Part shown: positions 33,973 through 43,727 of the stretch, piece by piece
How the letters are laid out: the number at the start of each line of letters is the position of its first letter
Position numbering within the stretch: position 1 is the first letter of the stretch
Assembly: GCA_012031875.1 (NCBI GenBank)
Contig: JAAUSZ010000005.1
Location: 1 to 50,471, forward strand
From: Desulfobacula sp.
GTDB lineage: Bacteria > Desulfobacterota > Desulfobacteria > Desulfobacterales > Desulfobacteraceae
DNA length: 50,471 nucleotides
Direction of reading: 5' to 3'
The notes under the pieces: model-generated
The model's input: the letters and a program-made list of their open reading frames with translations, nothing else
Told to the model about the DNA's origin: nothing
The model's database searches: none
Position numbers and translations under genes: made by a program

Positions 33973-34911
33973 ATGGCCGAGAAACCTGCAATAAAGATTG
34001 GGTATCTGAAAATTACGGATCATCTCATTCTTGGTGTGACTGACTTGAAATTAAAAAAAGGCATGGAAAAGTTTGAACACTGTACGCTTAACCCGGTAGT
34101 GAAAAACGGCTGGAACGAGGTAGCGGACGCACTGGCAACCAAATCCCTGGATGGCGCCTTGATACTGGCGCCAACCGCCATGGATCTGTTTAAATCAGGC
34201 GTGGATCTGAAACTTCTTCTTTTTGCCCATAAAGCAGGCAGTATCCTGGTGAAAAGCAAAAGGGCCCATATTGAAAAAATAGAAGATTTTGCCGGCAAAA
34301 CAGTCCTGATCCCTTATCAGCTTTCAGTTCATAATATGTTGTTTTACAAACTTTTGTCTGAAAAGGGGTTAAAACCTGGAAGAGCTACAGATAAAGGGAT
34401 AGATGTAACATTGGAAGTTGTAGCTCCGTTTCAAATGCCGGAAGCCCTGGAATACGATGAAGAAGGTGAAATTGGAGGCTTCATTGTTGCAGAGCCCTTT
34501 GGTTCTCTGGTTATTGCAAAGGGGTATGGAGAGGAATTCTATCTTTCCAAGGATTTATGGCCAAAACACCCCTGTTGTGTTTTCGTCGTGCGAAATGAAA
34601 TTATCCAGAAGCATCCGGAAGCTGTTCAGGAAATCTGTAATAGTTTTGTGAGATCCGGGCTTGCCATTGATGCTCAACCCGAGCCGGCTTCCATTATTGG
34701 AGGAGATTTTTTGTCCCAGGACAAAGATGTTATTTTTAAGGTTCTCACAGACCCGCCGGACCGTATTTTGACGGGGGAATTATTTCCCATCATCAAAGAT
34801 CTGGATACGATTCAGAAATATATGATGGATGAGATGAAAATCATGACCAGCTTGATCGATCTTGAGAAATTTGTCGATACCGGCTTTGCAAAAACGGCGG
34901 GGGCGAAATAG
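33973..34911 (+). CDS. NrtA/SsuA-type substrate-binding-like protein without signal peptide
   Basis: A 312-residue protein with the fold of periplasmic ABC-type binding proteins of the nitrate/sulfonate/NMT1 class: KIGYLKITDHLILGV at the start, LDGALILAPTAMDL, the hinge-like EKIEDFAGKTVLIPY, GGFIVAEPFGSLV, and CCVFVVRNEIIQKHPEAVQEI. The N-terminus (MAEKPAIKIGY) has no signal peptide or lipobox, so it is predicted cytoplasmic, and there is no permease or ATPase gene nearby. It may be a ligand sensor rather than a transporter part. It converges on the MerR-like gene with 7 bases between stops. Confidence 0.78.
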   Translation: MAEKPAIKIGYLKITDHLILGVTDLKLKKGMEKFEHCTLNPVVKNGWNEVADALATKSLDGALILAPTAMDLFKSGVDLKLLLFAHKAGSILVKSKRAHIEKIEDFAGKTVLIPYQLSVHNMLFYKLLSEKGLKPGRATDKGIDVTLEVVAPFQMPEALEYDEEGEIGGFIVAEPFGSLVIAKGYGEEFYLSKDLWPKHPCCVFVVRNEIIQKHPEAVQEICNSFVRSGLAIDAQPEPASIIGGDFLSQDKDVIFKVLTDPPDRILTGELFPIIKDLDTIQKYMMDEMKIMTSLIDLEKFVDTGFAKTAGAK

Positions 34912-34918
34912 AGCCTTT

Positions 34919-36139
34919 TTATGTTACCGTGGTCATGAATTTATAGATTTGTGAAATTGCCTTTTGGCTCCATTCAGGCTTTCCGGATAGGGTTCGGATT
35001 TTATTTTTGTTCAGCATAAAAGTTGTTTCTTCCGCACTATAGCCATCGGTTTTAAGACCCAGAATGGCTTTCATAATCGCGGCTTTATATTTTTCAATAT
35101 CGTCTGGGGAAACATCTATTTCAATGGCTCTTGCGCTTTTGATATCCTCGTTTTCAGGCATGAAGGGGTGAACGGCTTCATCAGGATCAATGAGTTTTGA
35201 CAGATCATCCATTATCGTATCAGGCGGGGTTGTCAATCGTGTCAAGTCATCAAGTGTTTCAATCACGGCTGATTCTGATGATTCCGTATCAATCAGTGCT
35301 GACAGGTCGTCAATTTCAATATCTTCAGGTTTGGAATCGTCCCCTATCAAGACAGATAAGTCATCCAGGCTAATCTGTGAATTTTTTAGGTCCTGAGATT
35401 CATCTTCGATGAGCAGAGACAAGTCGTCAAGCAGAGACAGGTCATCTGCTATGAGCAGGGATAAGTCGTCAATCTCAATAAAGCCGGATCTGTCTGATGC
35501 CATTTTTTCAAATGTGCCGGAATCCTTCAACCCATGATCCGCATCATCCATTTTTGAGGGTGTGTATATCTCATCCGTTTCGTCAATAATCAAAGCGTCT
35601 ACCGCCTGATGAGCAATTTTTTGAGCGACAGGTTCGATGCTCCCCCTGAACCGGTTCATTTCCTGCAGCGCATTGGCTATATTGTTCATGGCCTCGGCTT
35701 TTTTTTCTTCGGCCTCAGCCCGCTTTTCAATGGCCACCGCTTTTCTTTCTTCGGCCTCAGCTCTTTTTTCATGGGAGATGGCAATTCTTTTCTGTTGCTC
35801 GGTAAGGTCACTGAAAAGAGATTTTAAAAGGATTGCCCCTTCTTTGTTCAGGTGGATGTCGTCATCCCGAAAAACTGAGAGATTGAGGCTGTGATCCGTA
35901 TCAGAATTGGACAGGGTGCCAAGTCCTTCCTCTATTTCTCCCGGTAATATCCCGGCTTCGAGAGAGTCATGGATATCAATGATGGTTTTAATGGTTTCGG
36001 GCCAATAATGGGGCATCCCGTTAACCAGTTCATGCGGCAGCCGGTTTTTAAATCTTCTTAATATAAACTTAATCGTGGCTTTGCCGACTTTCAGTTCCTG
36101 AGCAATATCCAAAGCAGATAATGATTTTTCCCGGGTCAT
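34919..36139 (-). CDS. MerR-like DNA-binding protein with coiled coil and DDLSxLI repeat array
   Basis: A 406-residue protein of unusual build. Residues 1-70: winged-helix start of MerR type (SALDIAQELKVGKATIKFILRR, PHYWPETIKTIIDIHDSLE). About 100-170: a coiled coil of Ala/Glu/Lys repeats (EKRAEAEERKAVAIEKRAEA). About 220-320: seven copies of a DDLSxLI-like motif (DDLSLLI, DDLSLL, DDLSLLI, DDLSVLI, DDLSALI, DDLTRL, DDLSKLI) in acidic linkers. Last ~55 residues: a small helical domain (GYSAEETTFMLNKNKIRTL, QKAISQIYKFM) like the helix-turn-helix tail of large recombinases. GAGG precedes the ATG. No family name is offered for the whole protein. Confidence 0.7.
   Translation of the reverse strand: MTREKSLSALDIAQELKVGKATIKFILRRFKNRLPHELVNGMPHYWPETIKTIIDIHDSLEAGILPGEIEEGLGTLSNSDTDHSLNLSVFRDDDIHLNKEGAILLKSLFSDLTEQQKRIAISHEKRAEAEERKAVAIEKRAEAEEKKAEAMNNIANALQEMNRFRGSIEPVAQKIAHQAVDALIIDETDEIYTPSKMDDADHGLKDSGTFEKMASDRSGFIEIDDLSLLIADDLSLLDDLSLLIEDESQDLKNSQISLDDLSVLIGDDSKPEDIEIDDLSALIDTESSESAVIETLDDLTRLTTPPDTIMDDLSKLIDPDEAVHPFMPENEDIKSARAIEIDVSPDDIEKYKAAIMKAILGLKTDGYSAEETTFMLNKNKIRTLSGKPEWSQKAISQIYKFMTTVT
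35411..35470 (-). repeat. Tandem DNA repeat encoding DDLSLL units
   Basis: Adjacent near-identical 18-base units GAGCAGAGACAAGTCGTC (35411-35428) and AAGCAGAGACAGGTCATC (35429-35446), then a related GAGCAGGGATAAGTCGTC (35453-35470). They encode consecutive DDLSLL motifs on the minus strand, so the array seems to have grown recently by slippage or unequal exchange. Confidence 0.7.
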
Positions 36140-36159: not shown

Positions 36160-36172
36160 ATGATATATCATA
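36160..36172 (-). promoter_or_regulatory. Palindrome over the -10 of the MerR-like gene
   Basis: ATGATATATCAT (36160-36171) is a perfect 12-base palindrome. It overlaps an extended -10 on the minus strand, TGG-TATGAT (36172-36167 for the hexamer), about 28 bases before the ATG. The -35 is poor. This would suit self-regulation, which is inference. Confidence 0.4.
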
Positions 36173-36295
36173 CCAGATGAATCGGTCTTTCGAACGAGTT
36201 TATTGAATTTTTGGGAATAAATAAAGTCCTGTACAAATTTATTTTGCTTATCTCATTAAACCACAGCAAGGACAAAGGATAATCCGGTAAACTGT

Positions 36296-36324
36296 TTGAC
36301 AGTGTTTTTTTATGCTGTTATATT
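36296..36324 (+). promoter_or_regulatory. Strong sigma-70-like promoter for the prkA1 operon; rest of the 36140-36488 gap
   Basis: TTGACA (36296-36301), exactly 17 bases, TATATT (36319-36324), 5 of 6 in the -10. Transcription would begin near 36331, giving a leader of about 158 bases to prkA1. The 349-base gap otherwise holds the MerR-like gene's own control region (36140-36200), about 90 AT-rich bases in which I see nothing, a small CATCC/GGATG hairpin near 36406, and the hairpins described in the next entry. Confidence 0.7.
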
Positions 36325-36488: not shown

Positions 36489-38556
36489 ATGGCCGGCAAG
36501 TCAACCGTAAATCCAAAATCATTAATTCATCATGTTGAAGAAGTCAAAAAAGGGAAGAGAGCATTTCAGGATGCCTTTCAAGGCGTTGCCAGGATGATTC
36601 TTGAAGCGGGGGTTCGCAAAATCACGGTAAAAGGGAGAACAACATATCAGTTCGATATCTTCAGCCAGGGAAAGAAACATCTGGTGGGGATGTACGATGA
36701 AATCAACAGTTTTGTCTCCTTTGTGAAAGATGCTTCGGAAGGCGGGTCATCCAGGGAAATGGCTTTTGTGCTGGTGGGTGAGCCGGGGAATGGAAAGACC
36801 TTTTTTGTTGAATATCTCTGCGCCCGGTACCGTGATTTTTTAAGCATCCCTCAAAATAGAAAATATACCTTCCGTTTTACCAATCTGAATCAACTGGGAG
36901 GCTACGGCAAGATTGAGTTTATTGAATCGCAGACCTATGAAGACCCCATGATCCTGGCCATGAGTCTTTATGAGACAAGAGAAAAGACCCAGGAGTTTTT
37001 AGCCCAAAAATTTAAATATACCGATGAGCAAATTGAGGCGCTCTATGAAAAGTACCGGCCCTTGGGCGCCTGCTCCGCTTATATATTCAACCAGATCCGG
37101 GAATGTGCAGACAATGATATTGCAAAAATGCTGTCCTTTATCGAAATTACACCCGTACCCTTAATTGAAAGCCTTGGCACCATTACAGGGAAATATCCGG
37201 CAAAAGATAAAATCACCTCTTCAGCCGTTGATCTGATGGGTGAGGAATCCATCCAGCGCCTGCTTCACATTTCCGATTCAAACAACCCCTATCGATTCGA
37301 TTTGCGAAGGGGCGCCTTGGCCAGGGTGGCCGGCGGGGGCATTCATTTCAGTGATGAAATTTATAAAAATAAAAAAGACCTGGTCCAGGTCTATCTGGGT
37401 GTTATCCAGAACCGGATGATTGAACTGGATGGTTTCAAATGGCCCATCGATACTTTGATCATCGCCACCAGCAATAATTCAGAATTTGACACCTTTCTTT
37501 CCGAAAAAGAAGAGGCCCCGATTGTTGACCGATGCCGGATCTGTTATGTGGCCCATAATACCGATTATAAGATTCAAAATTTTGACGGAGTATGCCATTG
37601 GTAAAGACACCAAACGGTCCCTGGATTCAAAAGTACTGCATCAGGATCCGAATTTGAATTATGCGGCTTCCATCGGTGTTGTCCTGACGCGGTTGCCCAA
37701 ATCCGATAAACTCACCCCGGTTGAAATCATGAAGCTTGCCGCAGGGGAGGTGGCCGGTGAAAAGAGCCTGAAAACCCTGGCTGAATTGATTGATATCCTT
37801 AATCAGGATACCGATATCACCAAACGGTTCGGACAAAAGGGTCTGGGACAGAGAAACCTGGGCCGGGCAGTCCAGTTGCTTTTGGAAAGTTCTGAAACCA
37901 ATGAAGGGCAGTGCATGTTTGCCCTAGATATTTTCAATGCCCTTGAAAGAACCGTTCTGGATTATGTTCAGGAACCTGCGGACCGGGCAAAGTATAAGGA
38001 AGATCTGAAGATTGCCAGGGGCCTTTACCGGGAGCGGATCATGACCGAGATGTTCAATGCCTATATGGATGAACCCCTGGCCATTAAAAAGGATGTCATG
38101 AATTACGTCAATATGATCATCGGTGTGGATGCGGAACATCTGGGTCCCGATATGATGTGGAAATATAAAGATCCCCAGACAGGCGAACTCAGGGCTCTGA
38201 AAATCGATGAACGGTATATTAAAAATGTAGAGGAACGACTGGGTCTGAAAACCGAAGAACAAAGGGCGTCTTTCAGAAATTCCATCCGGAAGATTTACGG
38301 GCAGAAGCTATCCGTGGATGCCAACTATGATTTTATGGACAATCTTGAACTTGTCAAAGCCATTACCGATGTCCGCCTGAAATCCGATATTGCCGGAGCG
38401 GGATCTTTAATCGGGGCCCTGGCCAACAGGACCAATGAGGAAAATCAAAAGCTGTATGACCGGATGATTTATACCATGAACGAAAAGCTTGGGTATTGCA
38501 GGACCTGCGCCCAGAAAACCATTGAATATTTCTGCAGTCAAGAGGACGACAAATAA
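36489..38556 (+). CDS. prkA: PrkA-family AAA+ protein, first copy (frameshift)
   Basis: About 689 residues. An N-terminal AAA+ domain (Walker A GEPGNGKT, residues 97-104; FRFTNLNQLGGYGKIEF; RGALARVAGGGIHFSDEIYKN as the Walker B region; TLIIATSNNSEFD as sensor 1) precedes the C-terminal PrkA domain. PrkA (E. coli YeaG) is described as a serine protein kinase in stress and starvation adaptation; a Lon-like protease activity has been reported for the Bacillus protein. The C-terminus carries a cysteine cluster CRTCAQKTIEYFC. The frame breaks near 37575 as if one base were added; repair gives a DYKIQ-LTEYAIG join. It heads an operon with DUF444, spoVR and prkA2. Confidence 0.92.
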
Positions 38557-39775: not shown

Positions 39776-41415
39776 ATGGAACTTGTCAATCAACATGTCA
39801 AAGGCATCATGGAAGAGTGCAAATTAAGGGCCATGGATCACGGCCTTCAATTTGACGATGAAACCCTTGAATATATTGTGACCAACCGGGATATGATCGA
39901 ACTCAGCCCCAAGGTTATGATTCCGACCTTATACGACTACTGGGTTCATGATGTCCGCGTCCTTTCCGGAAAAGGGATGTATGAGGCCTATCCTTCAAAT
40001 CCCTATGAAACCGTCATCAATACCCGGCCTGCCATCTCATTCTATAATGACAATAATCCCGACTGGCTGAATGTGATGATTTTCTATCATGTCCTGGGCC
40101 ATATCGATTTTTTTCAGAACAATCTCTTCTATAAAAACACCTGGGACATCGATCTGACCGGCCAGGCCCTGTCAGATAAGCGAACGATTGCAAAACTTCG
40201 GTCTGAAAAAGGAAGATGGGTGGATTATGCCATCGAATTTGCCAGGGGCATTGATAATATCGTTGGATATCATAAGGAACTGAACCTGAACATCCGGAAG
40301 GAATTGAAACAGCCATTAAATCGGACGGATTTCTATTTTGATATTTTTTGCAGAAAATAAAAAACGTGTCCCATAACGACTACCTCAAGGAGATCAACCG
40401 ATACAATGAGGGCCTCCAAGACAATGAGGATTTTTTTAGCCTGGTCATCAACAAATATCCCGAGTTCGAGGAATTATACCGAAAAGAGCTTCTGATCAAA
40501 CCAAAGTCTGAAATAGATATCATGGAGTACATCATCCGGAATTCCCCGTTTCTGAAGGAAGATGAAAATGAATGGATGAAATCCGTTATGCAGATTGTCC
40601 GAAACACCTCATTATACTTTCAGCCCCAGATCAGGACCAAAATCATGAATGAGGGATGGGCCAGCTACTGGCATGATTATCTGTTCATGAGAGATGACAG
40701 GATCTGCGGCCATGAAGTGGATTATGCCAAAATCAATGCCGGCGTCACCTCCATGCCCAAGGTCGGGCTCAATCCCTATGCTTTGGGAATGAGGTTGTTC
40801 CAGCATATTAAGGATATGGAAGACCGGGGATGTTATTCTTTTGATTATACTTTGTTAAAAGATGAAATCGGAAAAAAGAAATTCAATAAGGCAAAAAATA
40901 CAGGAGCTGACTATATCCTCAGGGTTCGTGAAAATTTCAATGATTTTACATTTGTCAATTCTTTCATTGATCAGGATTTTATGACCCTGCATAATCTTTT
41001 TGTGGCAGGCAAACGCTTTAATAATGAACGAATGTCCATAGAGTACTATATCAAATCCAAAAAGGCGGAAGATTACAAGGAAATGCTTGTGGAAACCCTT
41101 TATCATCCCCCTGAGATCTCTGTGGATATTTCACTCAGTAAAAACGGCATCCTGTATCTGAGTCATAAATTTGAAAATAAACCCTTGAAGGTGGATTATA
41201 TTGAAAACACCATGATCGGTATCGAATATTTATGGGGCGGCCCCGTTCATCTGGAGACCACTGAACCTGCCATAGCCCGAAAAACGGCCGCGGATTATGC
41301 CAATTTCTGGGATCCTGCGTCCCAGCAGGCTGAAGAAAAAAAGCCTGAGCCCGTCAAATGGAAAAGAATGCTTTATATCATGGAAAACCGAAAACTTCAT
41401 AAACGGGAGATATAG
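39776..41415 (+). CDS. spoVR: SpoVR/YcgB-family protein (frameshift)
   Basis: About 546 residues rejoined. Family landmarks: FYHVLGHIDFFQNN, EFARGIDNIVGYH, and NEGWASYWHDYLFM with following YAKINAGVTSMPKVGLNPYAL. SpoVR was named for a Bacillus spore-cortex phenotype and occurs with PrkA and DUF444 across non-sporulating bacteria; recent work links it to cell-wall modification. The frame breaks near 40345-40350; one missing T joins FYFDIF to LQKIKNVSHNDY. It starts 37 bases after the DUF444 stop and ends 6 bases before the prkA2 start. Confidence 0.92.
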
Positions 41416-41421
41416 GCCCCT

Positions 41422-43727
41422 ATGGAAACCCATCCTTCAAAAACCATATCCGTGGATCAAACCCTGGAGCTGCTTGATAAAAATATGACGGATGTCCAGA
41501 GGCTCAAGCCTGTTCCCTTTGAAGAATTCCTGGCCATCCTGAATGCAAAACCATCCCAGATCCTGAGGAATATATTTCAGGCCTTCCATGATATGATCAA
41601 AACTTATGTGGTTGAGCCTGAAGAAACCTTATCTGAAGAAGGAGACCAGCTTTCATTCACCAATTATGATTGTTCACGCTTATTTGTGGAAGGATCTGAA
41701 AACCCTTTTTTTACGGATATGCTGTTTGCAAACCGGTTTATGAAGCAGATGGAATACCTGCGGCACGGGGCCCAGCAAAACAGGATCTATATTTTTTATG
41801 GACCCCATGGGTGCGGGAAAAGCACGTTTTTAAACAACCTGCTCAAAAAATTTGAACAATACGCCAATACTGAAGAAGGGCTCAGATATGAAATCGTGTG
41901 GCGGCTGAACATTAAAAAACTTCAGGATAAGGAAAAATCCCTTAGCGTATCCGCCTTTGAAAAACTCATCCACTATGTAGAGAAGGGGGAGGATGGCTTT
42001 AAGCAGGGGGCCAATGAAAAGCTGTTCGGAAGCACGGAAACTGAATATATTGAGATCCCCTGCATTTCCCACGACAACCCCTTTCTTGCCATTCCCAAGG
42101 ATCAGAGAAGAATCGTCCTGGATGAATTGATTAAAAATGATGAATTCAAATGGCGCCTTTTACGGAAAAGGAATATGAATGGGTGTTTAAGGAAGAAGTC
42201 TGCACCATCTGCTCATCCATTTACCATTCCTTGCTGGAGCGGCTCGGCAACCCATCGGAAGTTTATAAGATGCTGTATGCCAGGCCTTATTATTTCAACC
42301 GGAGGCTGGGCAACGGCATCAGCGTATTTAATCCCGGAGACAGCCCGGTAAAGCAGGACGTCCTTTCCAATGAGATGCTTCAAAACCGCATCAACGCCCT
42401 GTTTCAGGACAGCAATATTATCAGCTATCAGTATTCCCGGTTTGCAAAAATCAACAACGGGATTTATGCCCTCATGGATATCAAATCCCATAATATCGAG
42501 AGAATGGTTGAACTCCATAATATCATCAGTGAAGGGCTGCACAAGGTCGAAGACATTGAGGAAAGAGTGGATTCCCTGTTTTTTGCCTTGATGAATCCCG
42601 AGGACAAGCGAAGCATCCGGGATTTCCCGTCATTTGAGGACAGGATTCAATATATCGATATCCCGTATATTCTCGATATGAAGACCGAAGTCAAAATATT
42701 TATCAATATTTTCGGACGTCATATCGAAGGCGGTTTTTTACCCATGGTGCTGGAAAACTTTGCCAGGGTGATTATCTGCACCCGAATCGGTAAAAAATCC
42801 CAGGCCCTGGCCGAATGGATAAAAGATCCGGGAAAATATAAAAATTTTTGCGATGACCAGCTCATGCTGCTGAAAATGGAATTATTTTCCGGCAAAATCC
42901 CCAAATGGCTTGAGGAAGAAGATATTAAATCACTTGACAACAAGATGTTGAAAAAGATAATTGCAGAGTCTGAAATTTATGGGAAGGAAGGATTGTCAGG
43001 CCGGGATTCCATTAAATTGTTTGATCAGTTCTATTCCAAATATGCCAAAGAGGATCGACTGATTAATATGCTGGATCTGTGTACCTTTTTCAATAAACTG
43101 GATGATCCGCCCAAAAGAATGATTCCGCCCGGATTTCTGGAGTACCTGCTCAGGATGTATGATTACAGTGTCCTTCAGCAGGTAAAGGAATCCTTGTATT
43201 ATTATAATGAAGAGCAGATTGCCAAAGATATTAAAAATTATATTTCCGCCGTTACCCATGATGTTGATTCCGTTATCAAGTGTATTTTTACAAAAGAAGA
43301 AATTCATGTCACGGAAGCCTTTCTTGAAAGCATTGAAAACAGGCTTCTTTCTTCCAATATGGACCCAAAAAGAAGGCACGAAATCCGCAATGATGTATTA
43401 AAAGAATATACCACCCGGACCCTGACCCATGAGATCATGATAGAAGAAAAAAATATTACGGAAACCAGGCTGTTTGAATCCCTTTATGACCGATATGTGC
43501 ATAACCTGAAAAAAAGAGTGCTGGAACCCTTTATTGAAAATGAAAATTTCAGAAATGCCATCAAGGATTTTGATACTGAGAAGTTCAAGGCCCATGACAA
43601 ACGCATTAAAAAAGATGTTAAATTTCTCATGGGCAACCTTTCCAAAAAATTCGGATACACTGCCCAGGGGGCCAATGAAGCCTGTATTTACGTTATAGAT
43701 AATGATCTTGCCAATAAGTTCAAATAA
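41422..43727 (+). CDS. PrkA-like AAA+ protein, second divergent copy (frameshift)
   Basis: About 768 residues, clearly longer than and different from the first PrkA. Walker A is GPHGCGKST (residues 127-135) after a 120-residue N-terminal extension. Later matches to PrkA include FALMNPEDKRSIRDFPSFEDRIQYIDIPYILD and the C-terminal helical domain (YAKEDRLINMLDLCTFFNKL). It has an unusual insert, KEEVCTICSSIYHSLLERLG, with a CxxC that might bind metal. One missing T near 42160 breaks the frame; repair gives FKWRLFTEKEYEW. It closes the prkA1-DUF444-spoVR unit, 6 bases after spoVR. Kinase activity is not proven for this form. Confidence 0.85.

Follow-up and report, generated by a model that had tools for sequence, protein, structure and literature searches.

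What does a MerR-like protein do with an array of short acidic motifs set between a coiled coil and a recombinase-like tail? The question is raised by a gene on the minus strand of the window (the whole stretch of 50,471 nucleotides analyzed here), whose product a preliminary description had suggested to be a DNA-binding hub that recruits many copies of a partner. The gene and the parts of its predicted product are as follows.

34919..36139, minus strand: whole gene, 406 aa (ORF listing, Pfam, motif count, AlphaFold2 model)
35909..36139, minus strand: MerR-type winged helix, aa 1-77 (Pfam, structure model, Foldseek, fold comparison)
35639..35845, minus strand: long Ala/Glu/Lys-rich coiled-coil helix, aa 99-167 (structure model, pLDDT mostly 79-87)
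35105..35638, minus strand: acidic disordered region, aa 168-345 (structure model; 49 D+E and 11 K+R per 178 residues)
34925..35098, minus strand: C-terminal three-helix domain, aa 348-405, similar to part of the Recombinase domain PF07508 (Pfam, structure model)

This order of winged helix, coiled coil, motif-bearing linker, and small C-terminal domain, first read by eye, was borne out by Pfam and the predicted structure. The AlphaFold2 model, built from seven sequences, has a mean pLDDT of 61.8, with mostly 75 to 90 in the folded parts and mostly <50 across aa 168-345, where short helical turns appear at some motifs. An N-terminal MerR winged helix is present, with Z values of up to 10.6 between the model and MerR structures, and PF13411 (MerR_1) matches 14 of the 29 aligned members at an E value of ≤0.01, the window protein not being among these 14. 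Residues 5 to 75 of the model match the DNA-binding domain of RacA, a chromosome-anchoring protein of Bacillus, with a Z of 9.9 over 67 residues at 2.0 Å, and other MerR structures (GlnR and TnrA among them) score within 1 Z of it. The fold comparison was well tested for residues 3 to 96 only, and Foldseek with the model of the window protein gave no E value under 0.028. The recombinase-like tail holds as a match to PF07508, found in 20 of the 29 members, which in the window protein covers just a 48-residue piece at 21.4 bits (cutoff, 21.1); no N-terminal catalytic resolvase family was found among the Pfam matches of the window protein or the 29 members. We also looked for a named model spanning the full length and found none in Pfam or NCBIfam, the latter having nothing near its cutoffs for this product. 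A literature search on the motif, FliM-like repeats, NMT1 and chemotaxis, and MerR and flagellar themes, with subscription literature mostly outside its scope, did not recognize the family among the matches listed.

The motifs lie on the minus strand at the following positions (motif listing).

35450..35470, minus strand: motif 1, DDLSLLI, aa 224
35426..35446, minus strand: motif 2, DDLSLLD, aa 232
35408..35428, minus strand: motif 3, DDLSLLI, aa 238
35345..35365, minus strand: motif 4, DDLSVLI, aa 259
35291..35311, minus strand: motif 5, DDLSALI, aa 277
35231..35251, minus strand: motif 6, DDLTRLT, aa 297
35189..35209, minus strand: motif 7, DDLSKLI, aa 311

Seven DDL[ST]xL motifs are thus present in a 130-residue stretch, of which none of 20,000 shuffles reached three; five read DDLSxLI, as had been reported for all seven, and two are variants (DDLSLLD and DDLTRLT). 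Codon choice varies from motif to motif, with three Leu codons in use at position 3 and three for Ser plus one for Thr at position 4; it is therefore the protein motif rather than the DNA that has been kept. The near identity of adjacent DNA units described earlier was overstated, since the three units in 35408-35470 share 13, 15, and 16 of 18 bases pairwise. Opposite these three crowded units, most of the six nearest relatives align one motif, which makes a local expansion plausible. Motif number ranges from 0 to 11 across 46 distinct frames (loose pattern; fragments and the window's own frame included), with fresh expansions to 9, 9, and 11 motifs in L028, L046, and L045 (loose pattern).

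Far from being absent in relatives, the motif recurs in 248 strict copies in 54 family frames, some of these frames being cuts of a single gene; strict motifs are absent from five of the frames (L047, L150, and three fragments). Among 337 instances drawn with [DEN][DEN][LIVMFW]xx[LI][LIVM], a pattern that itself already constrains these positions, D is first in 98%, L third in 99%, S fourth in 73%, and L sixth in nearly all. Position 4 is mostly S, followed by W, T, and A, with D rare; motifs with W exist, such as DNLWDLV in an f18 copy in L075. Spacing across the family has a median of 20 and a mode of 18 residues. The motif core is kept among proteins 25 to 64% identical to that of the window, while synonymous codons, spacers, and copy number vary, a sequence pattern that supports the suggestion of multivalent docking. 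A strict DNA pattern of the motif gave 19 matches in the window's genome (3 with the pattern backwards, as a control), five in the gene itself and 14 elsewhere, each on a contig of its own; the peptide pattern was seen in frames at 5 of those 14 loci, none chemotaxis-like by eye. No other DDLS-repeat protein was found in this genome with the strict pattern, which catches 5 of the 7 motifs here and may miss weaker arrays.

A single protein query found relatives in 57 of the 86 genomes of the window's family and in 18 of 242 in a sample of the order. A 29-row profile searched against 389 genomes of the order (E ≤ 1e-8) matched 92, 49 within the family and 43 outside it. Strong matches outside numbered 14 (f18, G102, G166, G202, G229, G251, G266, G281, and G292; f35, G211, G257, G296, and G320; f52, G136; f68, G152), and the other 29 outside genomes were set aside because their weak part matches (E above 1e-12) were limited to the coiled coil or a single end. 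In a phylum-wide sample the profile matched 1 of 395 genomes, the window's own. Within the genomes sampled, the protein family looks restricted to one bacterial order; six named relatives were found, three of them Desulfobacula MAGs. Two looser motifs, DDLVDLI and DDLADLI, are found in the G211 copy, which has none of the strict form. In the G136 copy (L137:9946-11130, plus strand) the MerR domain is absent from the reading frame, and none was recognized by eye in three upstream frames. Gene decay in G075 was considered and rejected, the frame running off the contig end. The family is real and conserved, has no named model in the libraries searched, and consists of MerR/RacA-type proteins with a new candidate multivalent docking arm, for which we infer the function weighed below.

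The gene converges on a neighbor that accompanies it across genomes.

33973..34911, plus strand: convergent companion, 312-aa NMT1_2 (NrtA-like) protein, no signal peptide by eye (ORF listing, Pfam, co-occurrence)

In the window the gap between the two genes is 7 bases, and the other flank holds PrkA, DUF444, SpoVR, and a second PrkA. An NMT1 gene adjoins in 19 of 20 distinct family genomes read (the exception is G007), and PrkA lies on the divergent side, directly or past one or two ORFs, in all 19 of these genomes whose contig reaches that far; elsewhere in the family, G052 and G008 are exceptions on the PrkA side. In three noncarriers read (L108 to L110), IspD is followed directly by PrkA and the pair is absent, so the gene and its companion seem to come and go as a unit. 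Outside the family, PrkA was not nearby in the loci read; the f18 genomes read (except G292) and those of f52 and f68 have the NMT1 gene next door, and those of f35 do not. PrkA1 (36489-38556), SpoVR (39776-41415), and PrkA2 (41422-43727), all on the plus strand, each consist of two overlapping frames in the window, whereas related loci have single frames of 696 to 769 and 555 to 607 aa for the PrkA and SpoVR genes; either frameshifts from assembly or real decay could explain the split.

The companion matches PF13379 with 115.3 bits (cutoff, 24.7), which places it among the NMT1_2/NrtA-like proteins. Against solved structures, its profile found 3un6, a substrate-binding protein, at 7.7e-25 and then 8wm7 (NrtC/CmpC) at 1.8e-6; a model from seven near-identical sequences had a mean pLDDT of 37.7 and was not used. 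Among the 86 family genomes, with kinship ignored, an NMT1 match (E ≤ 1e-20) was found in 57 of 57 carriers of the gene versus 6 of 29 noncarriers, and an orthologue of the companion (79 to 100% identity) in 54 of 57 versus 3 of 29. In the two genera variable for the gene, the companion was present in 14/14 carriers versus 0/12 noncarriers and in 6/6 versus 0/7. The sample of the order had the orthologue (E ≤ 1e-130, 65 to 100% identity) in 25 of 242 genomes, 19 of which carry the gene (17 by the single query, with G136 and G292 by the profile), and of its 20 known carriers only G211 lacks the orthologue. Gene and companion also co-occur on different contigs (G002, G003, G005, G006, G007, G011, G257, G296, and G292), which in fragmented drafts need not mean distant genes. 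Carriers without the orthologue are G004, G008, and G075 (72, 85, and 90% complete, the G075 copy being cut by the contig end), and the companion occurs without the gene in G009, G010, G085, and 5 of 17 genomes outside the family. By co-occurrence, then, the gene is tied to a cytosolic NMT1/NrtA-like protein, the signal-less substrate-binding protein noticed originally. The PrkA module, named in the preliminary description as the other neighbor, shows no such tie: DUF444 is present in 52 of 57 carriers and 23 of 29 noncarriers (86 family genomes, Fisher P = 0.17).

The gene is also tied to motility by co-occurrence. FliM and/or FlhA were found in 56 of 57 carriers versus 12 of 29 noncarriers (family genomes, kinship ignored), the exception being G034, which is 56% complete; within the two variable genera the contrast is 13/14 versus 3/12 and 6/6 versus 2/7. 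Outside the family, all 14 carriers have FlhA, as do the five companion-only genomes tested. Since 12 of the 29 noncarriers are flagellated, the gene is not needed for flagella. Its surroundings in G052 (L098:5004-16135) comprise CheR, the companion, the gene, a receiver-NMT1 fusion, CheD, CheB, CheX, an HDOD-like gene, a second CheD-like gene, and CheA (HDOD-like and second CheD-like genes named by eye, the others supported by Pfam). The companion follows CheX and CheY in G296 and CheX in G257, and its neighbors in G131 are a CheY-like protein (by eye) and a receiver-NMT1 fusion. An NMT1 gene of 59 to 66% identity adjoins a receiver-NMT1 fusion in G098, G166, and G102, and in G046 a cytosolic NMT1 protein shares an operon with an ABC ATPase, an exported NMT1 protein, a permease, a receiver-NMT1 fusion, and an HPt protein (the exported NMT1 and HPt proteins assigned with Pfam, the other members by eye or similarity). 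In the f35 genomes read, the gene is beside neither the companion nor che genes. The natural reading of these contexts, together with the likeness to NrtC/CmpC, is that the companion is a cytosolic solute sensor feeding chemotaxis. The NrtA-like domain of the ATP-binding NrtC/CmpC subunits is intracellular; there, however, it is fused to an ABC ATPase, whereas the companion stands alone and its paralogues are fused to receivers. Frames of 1,199 and 1,212 aa at L141:6968 (G200) and L142:6793 (G109), with two NMT1 matches each and similar to the receiver-NMT1 fusion, are perhaps larger cytosolic sensors.

Two features mark the region between the gene and the divergent PrkA gene.

36160..36171, no strand: perfect palindrome of 12 bases, possible operator, about 30 bases before the start codon (palindrome test)
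36296..36324, plus strand: sigma-70-like site before the divergent PrkA gene, TTGACA, 17, TATATT, 11/12 (pattern; kept in near relatives, by eye)

Palindromes of 18 to 20 bases occur at the matching position in L005, L006, L007, and L017, and one of 12 bases in L035. Over 39 upstream stretches, arms of at least 8 were found in 5 (shuffles, mean 0.18, largest 2) and arms of at least 6 in 11 (shuffles, mean 2.7, largest 8). The palindrome sequences differ between genomes, and most of the 39 stretches are without any; they hint at a candidate operator or an RNA hairpin. In L038, the 60 bases upstream of the family gene (the G013 copy) hold a 31-base perfect hairpin with 14-base arms directly before the start. 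Positions 36180-36250 of the window show strong conservation in near relatives (read on the strand of the gene, CTTTATTTATT...AATTCAATAAAC...TCGATTC), and this stretch is perhaps the promoter of the gene. The window as a whole has 5 sigma-70-like sites, a number near the 3.7 expected by chance.

We favor, tentatively and at a little under an even chance, the view that the protein, bound to DNA, acts as a multivalent hub for a cytosolic sensory module linked to chemotaxis in flagellated Desulfobacterales. Its observed basis is the predicted domain layout, the motif conservation, the co-occurrence with the companion and with flagella, and the che contexts of the companion or its paralogues; from these we infer DNA binding, dimerization, docking, the identity of the partner, and the output (nucleoid clustering or transcription). 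Through its MerR-type winged helix the protein would stay on DNA, as RacA, TnrA, and GlnR do, and the coiled coil, which implies a dimer, would dimerize it. The acidic disordered arm would carry several D-[DN]-L-S-x-L-[IVL] docking motifs, so that one dimer could gather many partner copies. The likeliest candidate partner would be the constant companion, the NMT1/NrtA-like protein, or a receiver-domain protein working with it. Several observations count against such a hub: the flagellated noncarriers, the carriers that lack the companion orthologue and the genomes with the companion alone, the f35 loci away from companion and che genes, the PrkA flank at all 19 readable family loci, which may reflect a relation to PrkA, and the palindrome before the start codon, which fits a regulator at least as well. 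The palindrome test made us slightly less inclined to the hub and slightly more to its close rival, in which the protein is a conventional transcription factor controlling a motility or nutrient regulon. Its MerR domain would then bind operators, that of its own gene included, the arm would sense, and the NMT1 protein would dock to switch it. This is a serious possibility, if a less probable one: the winged helix is like those of TnrA and GlnR, and the long palindromes exceed the shuffles; however, their sequences are not shared, they could be RNA hairpins, and to our knowledge MerR regulators do not usually carry one motif in many copies. Somewhat less probable again is a chromosome-tethered scaffold, in which a RacA-like MerR protein would gather many copies of the cytosolic NrtA-like sensor or a receiver-NMT1 fusion on the nucleoid through a new motif, with gain tuned by motif number.

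The remaining explanations fare worse. The FliM/FliY motif EIDALL binds CheY-P, according to PMC9126983, and the acidic-aliphatic-x-x-Leu-aliphatic shape of the repeats resembles it, so the repeats could dock CheY-P in the FliM manner, with the protein acting as a sink or decoy for CheY. NDDIDALL lies within the G136 array, DDLDAL[LI] occurs in two other members, and FliM of related genomes begins MSEILSQDEVDSLL. Two profile tests of the motif as a copy of the FliM one were nevertheless negative (scored with the DDLS profile, FliM proteins come 409th to 580th among 2,680 background frames, and 188 of 1,927 background N termini score at least as high as the FliM N terminus), and the rarity of D at position 4 also speaks against a copy; it survives as a weak and improbable rival. 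That the gene regulates or feeds the PrkA/DUF444/SpoVR module, with the motifs as PrkA docking or substrate sites, would suit the constant PrkA flank within the family, but gene presence does not follow DUF444 and PrkA is missing from the loci read outside the family, which leaves this very unlikely. Least credible is neutral growth of a low-complexity linker without a partner: it would explain the variable copy number and locally expanding units but hardly a core kept at such divergence while codons and spacers change.

Known systems resemble the proposed DNA-bound hub in parts. In RacA a MerR-type winged helix is likewise followed by a coiled coil, and the protein binds origin-region DNA and anchors it via DivIVA; we know of no DDLS array or recombinase-like end in RacA, and the structural comparison concerns the winged helix. 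TnrA and GlnR, MerR-family regulators, share the winged-helix fold in a match that extends no further than the beginning of the coiled coil, and we know of no motif-bearing disordered arm in either. The repeats of ChePep of the Epsilonproteobacteria differ from the DDLS motif. By description alone, ChePep is similar in being a lineage-restricted chemotaxis protein, and the placement of CheZ depends on it (PMC7750401). In Myxococcus, chemosensory signaling complexes with FrzCD assemble on the nucleoid, although FrzCD, unlike the product studied here, is itself a receptor and binds DNA by a positively charged tail (PMC5716589). FrzCD and ChePep thus offer precedents for nucleoid-held signaling clusters and for lineage-specific localizers of chemotaxis proteins. 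If the protein is such a hub, bacteria would have a gene-encoded docking array for a signaling protein on DNA, tunable by copy number, and chemotaxis of sulfate reducers would include an NrtC-type intracellular solute sensor; even if it is not, a protein family without a named model has been delimited and a cytosolic NMT1 protein tied to motility.

A second family of acidic proteins was seen near NMT1 or receiver-NMT1 genes (L134:6496-7917, minus strand; L132:11160-11999, plus strand; L096:7120-7701, minus strand); its G128 member has nine tandem ADDLKKSQDFW-like motifs, and its relatives have one or two looser ones.
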